From Salinibacter ruber DSM 13855 (GTDB lineage Bacteria; Bacteroidota; Rhodothermia; Rhodothermales; Salinibacteraceae): a stretch of 64,000 nt of DNA. Each line of letters opens with the position of its first letter. Within the stretch, counting starts at the first letter, position 1. The translations under genes and the position numbers were made by a program. This document shows, piece after piece, positions 15,061-61,626 of the stretch. The notes below the pieces were generated by a model. That model was given only the letters and a program-made list of their open reading frames with translations, made no database searches and had not been told where the DNA came from. The stretch lies in contig NC_007677.1 of assembly GCF_000013045.1 (NCBI RefSeq), positions 868,001 to 932,000 of the forward strand. Direction: 5' to 3'.

Positions 15061-16458
15061 TTACGACTCGGCCGGCACGGGGGACGAGGCCTCGTCCACG
15101 GGCACATCGGCCGTTCGGGGGATCGTGCAGGTCACCACCGTTCCGTCTCCGGGGTCGCTCGTGATCTCGAGGCCCCCTCCGATGATGCGGGCGCGGTACT
15201 GCATGATGTGGACCCCCATCCCGGACCCGTCCGACACGCCGGGATCGAAGCCGGTGCCGTCGTCCCGCACCTGAAGGCGGATCTGCTCGTCGCCGGAGGC
15301 GAGAATGACCTTGATGTTGTCGGCCTCGCCGTGGCGCACGGCGTTGCTCACGGCCTCCTGGGCGATGCGGTAAAGGTGCGTCGCAACGGTGTTGTTGTGG
15401 ACGAGAACGGTGTCGACCTCCCGGAACGAACACGCCACGTTGAACATCCGCACGGCATTCTGGGACAGGCGGCGCAGGGCCTCGGTCAGGCCGTTGGCCT
15501 CCACGTCCACCGGAATGAGGCCGTGCGACAGGTCGCGGGCGTACTGGTCGGCCTCCTTGACGTGGTCGGTGATCTCGGCCATGTCCGCGGCGCGCTCGTG
15601 GCCCTCCTCCTCCAGCTGCCGGGCCAGGTCCTGACTCAGCAGGCCGATGCCGGTCAGCATCTGCCCGAGGCCGTCGTGCAGGTCCTGTCCAATGCGGCGG
15701 CGCTCCTCTTCGCTGATCTCCAGGATTTCCTTCTCGAGCCGGCGCCGCTCGCTAATGTCGCGCACGATGCCGGTGAAGAGGATTCGATCGCCCAATTCCA
15801 CTTCGCTCACGGCCAGGTCCATCGGGAAGGTGGATCCGTCCTTGCGACGGCCCCATACCTCTCGTCCAATGCCGATGATGCGCTTGCGCCCGGTCTCGTG
15901 GTAGTTCCGAAGGTACTCGTCGTGCTCGTCGCGGTACGGGGGCGGCATGAGCACCTTCACGTTCTTCCCGATCACCTCTTCGGCGTCGTACCCGAAGATG
16001 TCCTCGGCGGCTTCGTTGAACGACTCGATCTCCCCGTCCGCGTCGATCGTGATGATGCCGTCGACCGTCGTTTCGAGGATGGCCTGGGCCTTCGCCTCGC
16101 TCTCGCGCTGGGCCTGGCGCACGCGCTTGTAGCGGAGCACCACCGCCACTGCGGTCCAGAGGCCGGCCAGCACCAGGCCGCGCTCCATGAGCGCCTCGGC
16201 GGGGACGGAGGCCGCGAACTCAAGGGCGCACCCGAGCCCGACGAACGCCGTCGTCAGGAGGCCAAATCCGATCGTAGGGCCCCGCCCTTCGAGAAAGAGG
16301 GTCAGCAGAATGACCGCGACCTGAAGCATCTCCACGGTCGCCCCCATCGGGAGCATCCAGTCCAGGAGAAAGAACGCCCCGGACAGCAGGCCGAGGCCGA
16401 CGTAGAGGGGAATACGTCGCGAAGGGAGGGGCATGCGGGCGAACAGGGGGCGAAGCAT
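15061..16458 (-). CDS. membrane PAS-domain sensor histidine kinase (HisKA_3 type)
   Basis: A 465-residue sensor. The N-terminal 110 residues form about four membrane helices (17-35, 44-58, 62-82, 92-110) with almost no periplasmic domain. A PAS domain follows (about 122-245; ITIDADGEIESFNEAAEDIFGY) with a PAC-like end. The HisKA_3 dimerisation box has His261 in RRIGQDLHDGLGQ, and the HATPase domain has RDDGTGFDPG. The absence of an external sensor domain suggests it detects a membrane or cytoplasmic cue; bound cofactor is unknown. It pairs with the NarL-type regulator just downstream and diverges from a second UspA gene. Confidence 0.88.
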   Translation of the reverse strand: MLRPLFARMPLPSRRIPLYVGLGLLSGAFFLLDWMLPMGATVEMLQVAVILLTLFLEGRGPTIGFGLLTTAFVGLGCALEFAASVPAEALMERGLVLAGLWTAVAVVLRYKRVRQAQRESEAKAQAILETTVDGIITIDADGEIESFNEAAEDIFGYDAEEVIGKNVKVLMPPPYRDEHDEYLRNYHETGRKRIIGIGREVWGRRKDGSTFPMDLAVSEVELGDRILFTGIVRDISERRRLEKEILEISEEERRRIGQDLHDGLGQMLTGIGLLSQDLARQLEEEGHERAADMAEITDHVKEADQYARDLSHGLIPVDVEANGLTEALRRLSQNAVRMFNVACSFREVDTVLVHNNTVATHLYRIAQEAVSNAVRHGEADNIKVILASGDEQIRLQVRDDGTGFDPGVSDGSGMGVHIMQYRARIIGGGLEITSDPGDGTVVTCTIPRTADVPVDEASSPVPAES

Positions 16459-54251: not shown

Positions 54252-54530
54252 ATGATCAAAGAGACTTACGAGTGTAGAGAGTGTGGCTCCTCGAACATCG
54301 TCAAAAACGGACACAGCGCTAGCGGCTCTCAGCAGTATCACTGCAAGGACTGTGGAGCGCACAAGGTTCTCGATCCAGAGCCGCGAGGCTACTCCGAGGA
54401 GGAGAAAGAGAAAATCCTCCGTGCTTACCGCGAGCGCGGGTCAAAGCGGGCAATCAGCCGGATATTCGGCATCAGCCGCAATACATTGACCCGGTGGCTC
54501 AAAAAAAGGGACGAGAATCCGATTCAGTAG
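54252..54530 (+). CDS. insA: IS1-family InsA protein
   Basis: A 92-residue DNA-binding protein of IS1. A zinc finger is formed by YECRECGSS and YHCKDCGA, followed by a helix-turn-helix (AYRERGSKRAISRIFGISR). It binds the ends of the element and represses transcription in IS1. Its 3' end overlaps the InsB frame with the slippery run of seven A at 54501-54507, where a -1 shift makes the InsAB' transposase. Confidence 0.87.
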   Translation: MIKETYECRECGSSNIVKNGHSASGSQQYHCKDCGAHKVLDPEPRGYSEEEKEKILRAYRERGSKRAISRIFGISRNTLTRWLKKRDENPIQ

Positions 54531-54970
54531 CCGAAGGGCTCCGGCCTGCTGAGGAAGGCGATGTCCTTGAACTCGATGAATGCTGGACGTATGTCCGAGA
54601 GCGGGCGAATAAACGGTGGCTGTGGGTTGCTCTGTGCCGGAGAACCCGGCAGGTCGTGGCATTTGTGATCGGAGACCGTTCGGCCAGAACCTGTGCTCGG
54701 CTCTGGAGCCGGATTCCGGAGGAATACCGTCAGGGCAGAAGCTTCAGCGACTTCTGGAAGTCCTATCGCCCAGTGTTTGCGGGCGACCCCAGCCACCGGC
54801 AGGTCGGAAAGTCCAGTGGTGAGATGGCCCACGTGGAAAGATTCTTCGGGCGACTGCGCCAGAAGCTGGCCCGGTATGTCCGCCGGACGCGAGCGGCCTC
54901 CGAGTCAGAACGGATGCTCCATCTGACGACGAAACTGTTCGTGGAGTGGTACAACGAAGCCATCACTTAA
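54494..54970 (+). CDS. insB: IS1-family InsB (DDE transposase part)
   Basis: A 158-residue frame containing the catalytic domain. It has the family motifs ELDECWTYV (first Asp), NKRWLWVAL, FSDFWKSYR (second Asp) and HVERFFGRLRQKLARYVRR (Glu). It is normally made fused to InsA by -1 frameshifting; the frame has no independent good start apart from a GTG at 54494. Intact DDE residues indicate a functional transposase. Confidence 0.87.
   Translation: MAQKKGRESDSVAEGLRPAEEGDVLELDECWTYVRERANKRWLWVALCRRTRQVVAFVIGDRSARTCARLWSRIPEEYRQGRSFSDFWKSYRPVFAGDPSHRQVGKSSGEMAHVERFFGRLRQKLARYVRRTRAASESERMLHLTTKLFVEWYNEAIT
54501..54507 (+). promoter_or_regulatory. programmed -1 frameshift site (A7)
   Basis: A run of seven A in CTCAAAAAAAGGG within the InsA/InsB overlap. 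InsA reads CTC AAA AAA AGG; slipping back by one gives CAA AAA AAG GGA in the InsB frame. IS1 elements use such an A run to make transposase. Confidence 0.8.
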
Positions 54971-56747: not shown

Positions 56748-57260
56748 ATGGCTCGAAGCGTAAACAAAGTCGTCCTGATCGGGAACCTCGGGGACGATCC
56801 GGAGCTCCGATATACCGGCAGCGGGACGGCCGTCTGCAACATGAGTCTCGCCACCAACGAGTCCTACACCAACAGCGACGGGGAGGAGGTCCAGCAGACC
56901 GAGTGGCACGACGTGGTGGCCTGGGGGCGTCTCGGAGAAGTGTGCAACGAGTACCTCGAGAGGGGCTCGCAGGTGTACTTCGAAGGGAAGATCGAGACCA
57001 ACCAGTGGGAGGACCAGGACGGCAACACCCGCTACTCGACGGAAGTGAAAGCCCTGGAGGCGACATTTCTTGGGGAGGGGCCGGACGGGGCCGTTCCCGG
57101 AGGCGGACAGCCGGCGCAAGGCCAGAGTCCTGCCCCCAGCCAGCGACGCGCCGGCGGCCAGGGGGGCGCCTCGGGCGGAGGGCCGCCGAGCCAGTCCGGC
57201 GGAGATGGGCAGCCCGGTAGCGACGAGACCTTCGAGCCCGACGATGACCTCCCGTTTTAG
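56748..57260 (+). CDS. ssb: single-stranded DNA-binding protein
   Basis: A 170-residue protein with an OB-fold (about 1-110: RSVNKVVLIGNLGDDPELRY, MSLATNESYT, TEWHDVVAWGRLGEVCNEYL, VYFEGKIETNQWEDQDG), then a flexible Gly/Pro/Gln/Ser-rich linker and an acidic end DDDLPF, the tip that recruits replication and repair proteins. The complete C-terminal tip indicates a functional main or paralogous SSB. The neighbouring exonuclease and helicase suggest a DNA metabolism setting. Confidence 0.92.
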   Translation: MARSVNKVVLIGNLGDDPELRYTGSGTAVCNMSLATNESYTNSDGEEVQQTEWHDVVAWGRLGEVCNEYLERGSQVYFEGKIETNQWEDQDGNTRYSTEVKALEATFLGEGPDGAVPGGGQPAQGQSPAPSQRRAGGQGGASGGGPPSQSGGDGQPGSDETFEPDDDLPF

Positions 57261-57440: not shown

Positions 57441-58994
57441 ATGTCCACCCCCTCCGCACCGGATACGCCCGCATTGCGGATCGGTCCGGATGTCGCACTT
57501 GCCTGTGAGGACATCGAAGCGGCGGCCCGGGACGAGCACACGAGGCTCCGAACGACCGATGCGGCCACAGAAGCCCTCGCGTCCTCGCGTGCCGCCTTGG
57601 AGCGCGCCCGGGACGCCGGACGCCCCGTCTACGGCGTGACGACCGGCCTCGGGCCGCTCGTGGACGAGGCCGTGGAGTCCGACGAAGAATCGGCGTCGGC
57701 CCACGGGCCGTCCCCCGAAGGCGACCGTGGACGAAAATTGATTGCTCATCTCGGGGCCGGGGCCGGATCGTTCGCGCCGCCGCCGCTCGTTCGCGCCACG
57801 ATGATCGCGCGGCTCCAGACCCTGGTGCAGGGGCACTCGGCCGTGCGGCCCGCCCTCGTGGACGAGGTGATCGAGGTGTTCGAGTCCGGCCTGATCCCAG
57901 CGGTCCCCGAAGTCGGGTCCCTGGGGGCGAGTGGCGACCTCACACCGCTTGCGCACATTGCTCGGGTCTGCACCGGGGACGGGGCCGTGGTGACGAGCGA
58001 CGGCGAGCTGCTGGACGCCGCCGAGGCCTTGGAGGCGGTCGGGTGTGCTCCGTTGCGGCTGGGCCGCCGCGACGCATTGGGGCTGGTCAACGGCACGGCC
58101 TTCATGACGGCCTACGCGGCGCATGCCGTGGCCCGCGGGCGGCGTCTGTTGGAGCGGGCCGAGGCCCTCACAGGTCTGATCTACCGACTTCTGGGGTGCT
58201 CGCGGGAGGCGCTGGACGCGGACCTGCATCGGGCCCGCGGCCACTCCGGACAAGTCCAAAGTGCCGCCGCAATTCGGGACGTGGCGACGCGGGAGGGGGC
58301 GCGTCCCTCGGAAGAACGTCCCCTTCAGGAGGTGTACTCGCTCCGCTGTGCCCCCCAAATCTTGGGGGCGGTTCGTGAGCAGCTCCGGCACGCCCGTGAC
58401 CTCGTCGAGACGGAGCTGAACGGGGCCACGGACAATCCGGTGTTCGACACGGACGGGGCGGATGTGCTCCACGGGGGAAACTTCCAGGGCCAACAGGTTG
58501 CGTTCGCCGCCGACGCCCTGAACGAGGCCCTCACCCAGGCGGGTGTGCTGGCCGAGCGGCAGCTGGACGTGCTCCTGTCCCCGGACCAGAACGGCGGGGC
58601 CCCGCCGCTGCTTGCCTGGGAGCCGGGCCCTAACAGCGGATTCGGCGGCACGCAGCTTACCGCGACGGCCCTGGTGGCCGAGATGCGCAACGACGCGCAG
58701 ATGGCGGCCACGTCTTCGATCCCGACGAACGGAGACAACCAGGACGTCGTCTCCATGGGCGCCCTTTCGGCCCGACGGGCACACGGCCAGACGCGCCATC
58801 TCGCGACGATTCTGTCGATCCTGGGGCTGGCCCTGACGCAACTGACCCACCTCCGTGCGGAGGGCCGGGCCGAGGGGGCCGCGCCCGACCTGCCCGGGTG
58901 GATGCCGGCGGTCGACCCCGTCCGTGAAGACCGGGCCCTTCGGGCTGAGATCGACGACCTGACCGACCGTTGGGTGACCCCGCCCACCGCGTAG
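57441..58994 (+). CDS. hutH: HutH-family aromatic amino-acid ammonia-lyase, probable tyrosine type
   Basis: A 517-residue MIO enzyme. The MIO triad Ala163-Ser164-Gly165 is in GSLGASGDLTPLAH, catalytic Tyr64 in YGVTTGLG, and RC in VYSLRCAPQ. Histidine ammonia-lyases carry Ser-His at the substrate-selectivity pair and NQEDHVS near residue 435; here the pair is His103-Leu104 (LIAHLGAGAG) and the later motif is NQDVVSMG (433-440). In the known tyrosine ammonia-lyase, His-Leu at this pair selects tyrosine. No hutU, hutI or hutG is nearby. I therefore favour tyrosine to p-coumarate activity, although by overall family it would be called HutH. ATG 57441. Confidence 0.83.
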   Translation: MSTPSAPDTPALRIGPDVALACEDIEAAARDEHTRLRTTDAATEALASSRAALERARDAGRPVYGVTTGLGPLVDEAVESDEESASAHGPSPEGDRGRKLIAHLGAGAGSFAPPPLVRATMIARLQTLVQGHSAVRPALVDEVIEVFESGLIPAVPEVGSLGASGDLTPLAHIARVCTGDGAVVTSDGELLDAAEALEAVGCAPLRLGRRDALGLVNGTAFMTAYAAHAVARGRRLLERAEALTGLIYRLLGCSREALDADLHRARGHSGQVQSAAAIRDVATREGARPSEERPLQEVYSLRCAPQILGAVREQLRHARDLVETELNGATDNPVFDTDGADVLHGGNFQGQQVAFAADALNEALTQAGVLAERQLDVLLSPDQNGGAPPLLAWEPGPNSGFGGTQLTATALVAEMRNDAQMAATSSIPTNGDNQDVVSMGALSARRAHGQTRHLATILSILGLALTQLTHLRAEGRAEGAAPDLPGWMPAVDPVREDRALRAEIDDLTDRWVTPPTA

Positions 58995-59058
58995 CGTCCA
59001 TTTCGTACCGCGGCGAGCAGCGTGGCGGTACGTGCCCCTTGTCTCATGTCCGTGTCTC

Positions 59059-61626
59059 ATGATTGACCGCGAGCAGCTTACCGACGAGCAGACCCGGATC
59101 GTCCAGCACGGCCGCGGGCCGGCCCTCGTGTTTGCCGTGGCGGGCGCGGGGAAGACCACGTCGCTGGTCCACCGCATCGCGCGTCTCGTGACGCAGGGGG
59201 GCGTGGCCCCGGGCAACATCCTGGCCAGTTCGTTCAGTCGGGCCACGGCGCAGGACCTGGAGGCGGGGCTGACGGAGCTCGGGCTGCCGGACGTAAACTG
59301 CCGCACGCTGCACTCGCTGGGCCGGCAGTTCCTAAAGTGGGCCGAGGCGGAGCACCACTGGTCGCGTCGGCTCGGGGACGAGGATCTGAACCCGTCCCGC
59401 CTCGGCCCGGTCCTGGCCGGCCGCGCCCTCACGCGCCTCGCCCGCGAGCGGGACGTCGACGACCACGAGCTGGACATCGATCGCGGCGAGCTGGAGGACC
59501 AGGTCAGCGCCTGGAAGGCTCAGCTTTGCTACCCCGACCTGGACGAGGCGGCCCTCCCGCCCGCGGCCCGCGAGGAGGCCCGCCAGGCCGAGCACGACAA
59601 CGAGGACTTCGTCACCCTCTACCAGTACTACGAAGAAGAGCGGCGGCGGGAGGGGTGGGTCACGTTCGACGACATGCTGCTGGAAGGGTGGGAGGCCCTC
59701 CTCCGGTTCGACGACCTGCGGGCACGGGCCCAGCAGGCCTACGAGCACGTCCTGATCGACGAATTCCAAGACATCAGCCGCGTCCAGTACCAGATGCTGG
59801 ACGTGCTCACCGAGCCGCACCGCAACTACATGGCCGTGGGCGACGACGACCAGTGCATCTACGAGTGGCGCGGGGCAAACCCGTCGTTCATTCTGGACTT
59901 TCGGGAAGAGTACGAGGCCGACGAGTACCTCATCCGGGACACGTTTCGGTCGCAGGCCCCGCACACGGTTCTCGCCAACGCGGTCATCGCCCACAACGAC
60001 CACCGGCGCGAGAAGCACCTCAACCTGACCCGCGGCTTCGGCGGCAGCACGCAGGTCCACGCCGCCGACGGGGCCGACGCCGAGGCGACCCATGTAGCCG
60101 GTGCCATCGAGTCTCAGCTCGACACGGGCCGCACCCTGCCCGAAATGGTGGTGCTCGTCCGCCAGTACGCGCAGACGCCGTCCCTCGAGCAGGTCTTCAT
60201 CGACCGCGATCTGCCCTACCGGATCGTGGGAAACGTGCCCTTCTACCGCCGCCGCCCGGTCCAGGTGCTGCTCCGGCACCTGTTCTGGGGCACCCTCGAA
60301 GCGACGGTCCGCACGGCGGGTTGGTTCGACCACCGGCGCAACGCGCAGCGCTACGTCGACCGGTTCCAAAAGCTCATGCGGGAGCCGAACCGGTACGTCA
60401 GCACGGACCTCATCACGCGCCTCTGTCGGGAGGCGGTCGGCGACGAGACGTCGATCACGGACCTTCTCGCCGCCTCGATGGGGGCGATGCACGACCGGAC
60501 CGCCGAGCGGGTGGAGCGCTTCCTGGACACGGCCGACCAGCTCGTGGACCGGCTCGACGAGCCGGCCCACAGGACCGTCGACTGGCTCATCAAGGCCCTC
60601 GACTACGAGGACTACCTCCGGCGCTACAGCGCCTTCGAGGAGCTGGCCGACCGGCGCATCCGGACGGCCCGGTCGCTCATCGACTTCGCGCGGGGACACC
60701 CCGACGTCGCGTCGGTCCTCCGTCGAATCAAGGAGATTTCCGTGGACCGCCCCGATCGTGGGGCCCAGGCGGACGTGCTGGAAATCCGGAGCATCCACCG
60801 GGCCAAGGGCCGCGAGTGGCCCGTCGTGTTTGTGCCGGGCTGCAACGACGGCACGATCCCCACGTCGCGCGACGACAGCACAATGCCCCCTCCCGACGAG
60901 GACGATTCGGCGGGGGCATCCGATGATTCCGGGTCCGAGGACTCCGACACAGACGACGCCCCGGCCGCCCGCCGGGAGGAGGAGCGTCGCCTGTTTTACG
61001 TCGCCCTCACGCGGGCGCAGGAGCAACTGCACCTGTCCTACGACCGCACCGAGCCGCCGTCGCCCTTCCTGGCGGAGGCCGACGCTGAGCACCGGCTTGC
61101 CCTGTGCGACCGGGTGCGACCGGTTTTCCACCGCCCGGCCGACGACTGGGCGGCCGCGGACGTGGCCTGGCTCTGCATCGGGGCCGGGGCGTTGCGGCTC
61201 CGCCGCTACCTAACGACGTGGTGGGATCCCACAGAGGCACAGCGGCGCGCCCTGGCGGCCCACCTCGGTCGTGAAGAGGCGCTTCGGGAGGCGGCAGACG
61301 CCGAGATTGCGGCGTACGCCCGCGACCCCGGTGCCGAAGAGAAGGGAGCGCACGACGCCTCCAGCCCGATGGAGGAGGGAAGCGATGCCTCCGAGACGAA
61401 CGGGCACGCTGGTCAGACGGCCGAACAAGACGCGGGCGTTCCTACGGAGGCACCGGTGGACGAGGCGACGGCCCAGCAGTTGCGGACGGCGTTCGAGGAC
61501 GGTCGTGAGGTCGTCGAGGACGCCCTCGGGCTCGGCCCCGACGAGGCCGATCCTGCCAATGCTCCTGCCGAGAAGCCCGAGGGCGTCCCGGAAGACGACG
61601 CCGTGGGCGGCACCGTGGCGGAATGA
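59059..61626 (+). CDS. UvrD/Rep-type superfamily 1 helicase
   Basis: An 855-residue ATP-dependent DNA helicase. Motifs in order: Walker A AGAGKTT (28-34), Ia SFSRATAQDL, II LIDEFQDIS, III GDDDQCIYEWRGA, IV FRSQAPHTV, V IRSIHRAKGREWPVVFVPG and VI RRLFYVALTRAQEQL. It differs from the main UvrD in having a DDSAGASDDSGSEDSDTDD acidic insert before motif VI and about 130 acidic disordered residues at the end. It is probably a UvrD paralogue in repair or replication-fork maintenance. ATG 59059 gives the family N-terminus. It is 64 bp downstream of the ammonia-lyase gene. Confidence 0.9.
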   Translation: MIDREQLTDEQTRIVQHGRGPALVFAVAGAGKTTSLVHRIARLVTQGGVAPGNILASSFSRATAQDLEAGLTELGLPDVNCRTLHSLGRQFLKWAEAEHHWSRRLGDEDLNPSRLGPVLAGRALTRLARERDVDDHELDIDRGELEDQVSAWKAQLCYPDLDEAALPPAAREEARQAEHDNEDFVTLYQYYEEERRREGWVTFDDMLLEGWEALLRFDDLRARAQQAYEHVLIDEFQDISRVQYQMLDVLTEPHRNYMAVGDDDQCIYEWRGANPSFILDFREEYEADEYLIRDTFRSQAPHTVLANAVIAHNDHRREKHLNLTRGFGGSTQVHAADGADAEATHVAGAIESQLDTGRTLPEMVVLVRQYAQTPSLEQVFIDRDLPYRIVGNVPFYRRRPVQVLLRHLFWGTLEATVRTAGWFDHRRNAQRYVDRFQKLMREPNRYVSTDLITRLCREAVGDETSITDLLAASMGAMHDRTAERVERFLDTADQLVDRLDEPAHRTVDWLIKALDYEDYLRRYSAFEELADRRIRTARSLIDFARGHPDVASVLRRIKEISVDRPDRGAQADVLEIRSIHRAKGREWPVVFVPGCNDGTIPTSRDDSTMPPPDEDDSAGASDDSGSEDSDTDDAPAARREEERRLFYVALTRAQEQLHLSYDRTEPPSPFLAEADAEHRLALCDRVRPVFHRPADDWAAADVAWLCIGAGALRLRRYLTTWWDPTEAQRRALAAHLGREEALREAADAEIAAYARDPGAEEKGAHDASSPMEEGSDASETNGHAGQTAEQDAGVPTEAPVDEATAQQLRTAFEDGREVVEDALGLGPDEADPANAPAEKPEGVPEDDAVGGTVAE

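Follow-up and report, generated by a model that had tools for sequence, protein, structure and literature searches.

Chromophore supply to photoactive yellow protein (PYP) is established for the operon of Halorhodospira halophila, in which an MIO tyrosine ammonia-lyase (TAL) converts tyrosine to p-coumarate, a p-coumaroyl-CoA ligase (pCL) activates it and the product is loaded onto PYP (PMC12826048). In surveys a TAL gene adjoins only 5–10% of pyp genes, and the authors suggest that the enzymes may be encoded at other loci or p-coumarate obtained from an external source (PMC12826048, PMC9664959). The PYP of Salinibacter ruber is a studied photoreceptor with a dark recovery of about 1 h (PMC12826048). 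Substrate choice in these lyases responds to single replacements: with His89Phe the Rhodobacter sphaeroides enzyme (RsTAL) uses Phe in place of Tyr (Watts 2006, as relayed in PMC9002059) and H87L produces the same switch in the TAL of Treponema socranskii (PMC8750797). Our literature search found no paper linking the S. ruber lyase described here to the S. ruber PYP. The primary paper on this PYP, by Memmi et al. in 2008, is said to remark only that pyp stands without flanking biosynthetic genes.

We analysed a window of 64,000 nucleotides of the S. ruber DSM 13855 genome (contig NC_007677.1, positions 868,001 to 932,000), a genome of two contigs and 3,587,328 bases in total, with a chromosome of 3,551,823 bases. 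One open reading frame of the window, encoding 517 amino acids, starts with ATG and runs uninterrupted and without frameshift (Table 1). We propose, with a probability of about 0.88, that it encodes an MIO tyrosine ammonia-lyase, the p-coumarate from which, once activated by pCL, would be loaded onto PYP. Orthology, gene order in relatives and individual residues support this reading, and from them we infer the substrate, the reaction and the joint use of the three proteins. The triad Ala163-Ser164-Gly165 would cyclise to the MIO electrophile that removes ammonia from L-tyrosine; in the predicted geometry His103 would hydrogen-bond the phenol oxygen and Leu104 pack against the ring, giving trans-p-coumarate. 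Encoded on the minus strand at C1:2941881-2943413, the divergent CoA ligase pCL would carry out the activation, and loading onto the cysteine of PYP (C1:2756874-2757344) would complete the blue-light receptor.

Table 1. The candidate lyase gene, its diagnostic codons and its flanking genes (positions in the window).
Feature	Positions	Strand	Basis
Candidate tyrosine ammonia-lyase (TAL) gene, MIO-family aromatic amino acid lyase	57441..58994	+	Pfam Lyase_aromatic; orthologues in PYP-pCL-TAL clusters
His103-Leu104 codons, selectivity pair homologous to RsTAL His89-Leu90	57747..57752	+	Alignment
Ala163-Ser164-Gly165 codons, triad predicted to cyclise to the MIO group	57927..57935	+	Alignment with RsTAL 149-151; invariant among orthologues
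NQDVVSMG (433-440) codons, TAL/TAM-type motif replacing HAL QEDHVSMG	58737..58760	+	Alignment
ssb gene, upstream flank of the relocated TAL; site marker outside the pathway	56748..57260	+	Pfam SSB; same neighbour in G066, G063 and TAL-less G062
uvrD-like helicase gene, downstream flank; site marker outside the pathway	59032..61626	+	Pfam UvrD

PYP, ligase and lyase genes in relatives and in S. ruber

Our survey comprised 114 genomes of the order, 21 with a PYP gene and 93 without. Model TIGR02373 stays under its cut-off in all genomes of the order, and PYP matches were accepted on E-values of about 1e-30, the cysteine motif (APCSNN or APCTNN) and the known S. ruber protein. TAL orthologues, defined by at least 55% identity to the query (range 55–95%), occur in 17 of the 21 PYP genomes and in none of the 93 others (Fisher p = 8e-17, a value that counts genomes as independent despite their kinship). 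A pCL orthologue is present in 20 of the 21 and again in none of the 93; in the remaining PYP genome, G055, a contig end falls inside pCL. Four genomes, 83% (G069) and 93–99% complete (G062, G072 and G073), possess PYP with its cysteine and pCL and have no TAL orthologue. Hence, TAL is not strictly required wherever PYP occurs.

In 11 relatives (G033, G049, G052, G054, G056, G064, G065, G067, G068, G070 and G071) the PYP and lyase genes lie 1.5–2.9 kb apart on the same strand with the CoA ligase between them, the order being PYP, AMP-ligase, lyase and, in most, a DUF427 gene. G064 and G065 are near-duplicates within this set, and loci L012-L016 duplicate the records of G071, G064, G065, G052 and G055, and so are not independent of the count of 11; the named relatives are Salinivenus. 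In G049 the pCL and TAL are fused in a single frame of 1023 amino acids with both Pfam domains (L154:4807-7878, minus strand), directly 3' of PYP. An Acidobacteriota MAG (L031, 39% identity) has a cluster of PYP, AMP-ligase and a His-Leu lyase, and no PYP match was found in the loci of Ser-His homologues, most of which include 6 kb flanks.

The cassette is present in G033 (family f9) and G049 (family f12) and missing from their sister genomes, which suggests that both gained it by horizontal transfer. Upstream of PYP in relatives is a gene with a PYP-like domain (35–40% to PYP) and a long extra N-terminal region, for example at L151:3809-5458, L153:8963-10378 and L155:8779-10521; its product is a possible signalling partner of PYP.

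The first-pass annotation had suggested searching the genome for pyp and p-coumaroyl-CoA ligase, and S. ruber has both a PYP gene, with the cysteine motif APCSNN, and a pCL orthologue (L166:5882-7414). The latter shares 61–65% identity with the ligases found in the operons of relatives in the genus Salinibacter and is a divergent AMP-ligase, scoring approximately 90–92 bits to PF00501, with no 4-coumarate ligase model among the matches listed for it. The genes around it run TPR, PLP enzyme, DUF427, pCL, a 97-aa remnant, phosphoglucomutase and COX15, reproducing the operon site of relatives gene by gene, minus TAL (from the gap between DUF427 and pCL) and the upstream PYP. The remnant is the PYP-like partner gene, shortened to an N-terminal piece (L166:7475-7768). 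TAL itself stands between ssb and the uvrD-like gene in S. ruber, G066 and G063; the uvrD-like gene, the true start of which is possibly the ATG at 59059, was found among Salinibacter-genus genomes at E <= 1e-200 only in G000, G062, G063 and G066. The ancestral arrangement would have been PYP, pCL and TAL next to the DUF427 gene. On the way to S. ruber, TAL would have moved between ssb and the uvrD-like gene and PYP elsewhere, while pCL and DUF427 stayed in place. G074 provides a second case of TAL separated from PYP and pCL.

In G062, ssb and the uvrD-like gene are 202 bp apart and TAL is absent. Within the gap, a stretch of 34 bp matches the 3'-terminal part of the G066 TAL and the bases downstream of it (score 51, against 35 for the best of 300 shuffles), and there is no such match to the S. 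ruber or G063 copy. This apparent remnant favours, short of proof, a later deletion of TAL from the site rather than its never having been there.

Three further observations were made in S. ruber. An IS1-type transposase (PF03400) occupies positions 54494-54970 of the window, 2.5 kb 5' of TAL. A short gene without Pfam match adjoins PYP (L165:8077-8520), and one of similar look does so in G069 (L205:5091-5537). A 23-bit match to the PYP model at window positions 15958-16089 (minus strand), within a frame of 492 amino acids, was set aside as probably the PAS domain of another sensor.

Since TAL, pCL and PYP are mutually distant in S. ruber, their functional link rests on orthology. The same distance, together with the retention of PYP and pCL in the four relatives that have no TAL, could be taken to mean that the S. 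ruber enzyme, though a TAL, is no longer involved in maturing PYP and provides p-coumarate for a different purpose. We consider this unlikely: the genome has intact genes for all three proteins, the PYP cysteine included, no other consumer of p-coumarate emerged among the genes analysed, and purifying selection acts on TAL (dN/dS of its lineage approximately 0.14–0.16), also at the new ssb-uvrD site. A TAL supplying p-coumarate to PYP, as the first-pass annotation had envisaged, gains support from the homology of the selectivity pair, the presence of PYP and pCL in the genome and the clusters of the 11 relatives. In the comparisons made here, no outcome that the annotation had named as counter-evidence was observed. 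Its reading appears to have been right on residues and function, its thin argument having been made strong by comparative evidence.

Residues, family scores and phylogeny of the lyase

The predicted protein matches PF00221 (Lyase_aromatic) with 453 bits across residues 20-477, and falls below the cut-offs of five more specific models: the HutH subfamily, its top full-length NCBIfam score (382 bits, cut-off 524), TIGR01225 for histidine ammonia-lyase (367.5, cut-off 539), TIGR03832 for tyrosine 2,3-aminomutase (338, cut-off 501), NF053541 for the flexirubin TAL FlxA (270.7, cut-off 700) and TIGR01226 for phenylalanine ammonia-lyase (226.6, cut-off 519). Residues were compared with RsTAL (PDB 2o6y), using a sequence identical to that entry except at the MIO triad, which is one residue in the PDB. 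The triad is intact in S. ruber, and Tyr60, Asn203, Tyr300, Arg303, Asn432, Asn435 and Gln436 of RsTAL correspond to Y64, N217, Y299, R302, N430, N433 and Q434. The equation of His103-Leu104 with RsTAL His89-Leu90, first made in the first-pass annotation, is confirmed by alignment, and both residues are unchanged in all 15 aligned orthologues; this invariance and the purifying selection show that the pair is no chance variant. Equally, the replacement of the HAL motif claimed in the first-pass annotation is borne out, NQDVVSMG lying opposite NQDVVSLG in RsTAL where the genome's own HutH has QEDHVSMG.

Among the 80 closest genome_contigs loci, His-Leu is confined to the Salinibacter-family loci L012-L016 and the Acidobacteriota MAG; wherever the pair aligns in the remaining homologues, among them actinobacterial and Cupriavidus ones, it is Ser-His (L045 is unaligned there). 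HutH proteins across the order, like the genome's own, combine Ser-His with QEDHVSMG. SgTAM uses tyrosine with Ser-His, and the pair by itself therefore does not fix the substrate.

Another reading takes the enzyme for a phenylalanine or dual Phe/Tyr ammonia-lyase, making cinnamate for another product. Promiscuity is frequent in MIO lyases and RsTAL itself has some Phe activity, yet the S. ruber protein has His where Phe or Leu confers Phe selectivity, misses the phenylalanine ammonia-lyase cut-off by a score of 227 bits to 519, and has orthologues that cluster with PYP, the chromophore of which is p-coumarate; we regard such a role as distinctly improbable.

In a tree of 39 rows the 15 orthologues form a single clade with support of 100. 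This clade joins RsTAL and the Acidobacteriota lyase with an SH-aLRT of 91, below the threshold of 95 and on long branches, and the resulting group lies apart from HutH, the Ser-His homologues and SgTAM. An AlphaFold model of the S. ruber lyase (pLDDT 81.8) has RsTAL 2o6y as its top Foldseek match in the PDB; VIA Z is alike for TAL, TAM and HAL at 36–38, and the fold, being uninformative on substrate, was not used as substrate evidence. The top phmmer matches in the PDB are to SgTAM, with which the protein also shares the motif NGDNQDVVSMG, but an SgTAM-like tyrosine 2,3-aminomutase yielding beta-tyrosine is very unlikely given His-Leu rather than Ser-His in all aligned orthologues, a score beneath the TIGR03832 cut-off, the clustering with PYP in relatives and a tree that groups the lyase with RsTAL rather than SgTAM.

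Histidine ammonia-lyase beyond the window

The first-pass annotation had noted no histidine-degradation gene nearby, which is true inside the window, but a canonical hutH lies at C1:933243-934763 (L003:12244-13764), 6.2 kb downstream of TAL and 1.2 kb beyond the window's end. Its product, 37% identical to the TAL candidate, reaches 610 bits with TIGR01225, over the cut-off, and has the Ser-His pair and QEDHVSMG. This is the true HutH, and the lyase of the window is therefore not the genome's HAL. Co-regulation with hut genes had been named as evidence that would count against a TAL; the uvrD-like gene and two genes in opposite orientation lie between the two lyase genes, so that hutH is not co-transcribed with TAL.

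The proposed search for a second hutH accompanied by hutU succeeded in its first part and not in its second, the urocanase gene (hutU) having no match in the S. ruber genome with either of two models. Nor was hutU found in any of the Salinibacter-family (f1) genomes listed. HutH-like genes are nevertheless present in G000, G062, G066, G072, G056, G057, G075 and G076. In this family urocanate may be an end product, perhaps a UV screen, or may be degraded by an alternative route.

The best full-length score to the HutH subfamily and a true hutH only a few genes away are what recommend an additional HAL, or an aromatic lyase of broad specificity chiefly for amino-acid breakdown, a reading that is nonetheless scarcely credible with Ser-His and QEDHVSMG both missing, the TIGR01225 cut-off unreached, no hutU found in the genome or the listed family members, a separate gene for the real HutH and a distribution that tracks PYP; on pair, motif, model score and distribution we rejected identity as a second HutH.

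Significance and comparison with known systems

A concrete candidate TAL and pCL can now be named for the chromophore of the S. ruber PYP, both descended from a PYP cluster that is intact in relatives. The enzyme type is known, and the value of the result is in assigning missing chromophore genes to a studied PYP. Annotation by sequence would conceal both genes, the lyase scoring best as a HAL and the ligase having no listed 4-coumarate ligase match. Of wider interest is that PYP and pCL were retained through the relocation of TAL and through its loss from several relatives; relatives with PYP and pCL and without TAL make the chromophore supplier directly testable. A tentative extension, which we hold to be possible and on balance doubtful, is that chromophore supply has been loosened from the operon and that TAL-less relatives rely on p-coumarate from TAL-bearing neighbours, plants or algae, much like a shared vitamin.

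Of the known enzymes, HutH (TIGR01225) shares the MIO fold and family with the S. ruber lyase and differs in its Ser-His pair, its QEDHVSMG and a cut-off that the lyase does not attain. SgTAM (PDB 2rjr/3kdz) shares the MIO fold and the longer motif, but has Ser-His where the S. ruber TAL family has His-Leu. RsTAL, the best Foldseek match, has the MIO triad, His-Leu, NQDVVS and equivalents of Tyr60, Asn203, Tyr300 and Arg303 in common with the S. ruber protein at approximately 35% identity over the whole chain; the latter is divergent in sequence, has Gly402 in place of Met405, belongs to a clade with an N-terminal loop insertion (residues ~76–96) and is encoded by a gene that does not adjoin pyp. 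The H. halophila operon of pyp, pCL and TAL (PMC12826048) comprises the same three functions, and its order is kept in the relatives of S. ruber, which add the DUF427 gene and the PYP-like partner gene, whereas in S. ruber itself the genes are placed at three loci and the predicted pCL is a divergent AMP-ligase with 92 bits to PF00501.
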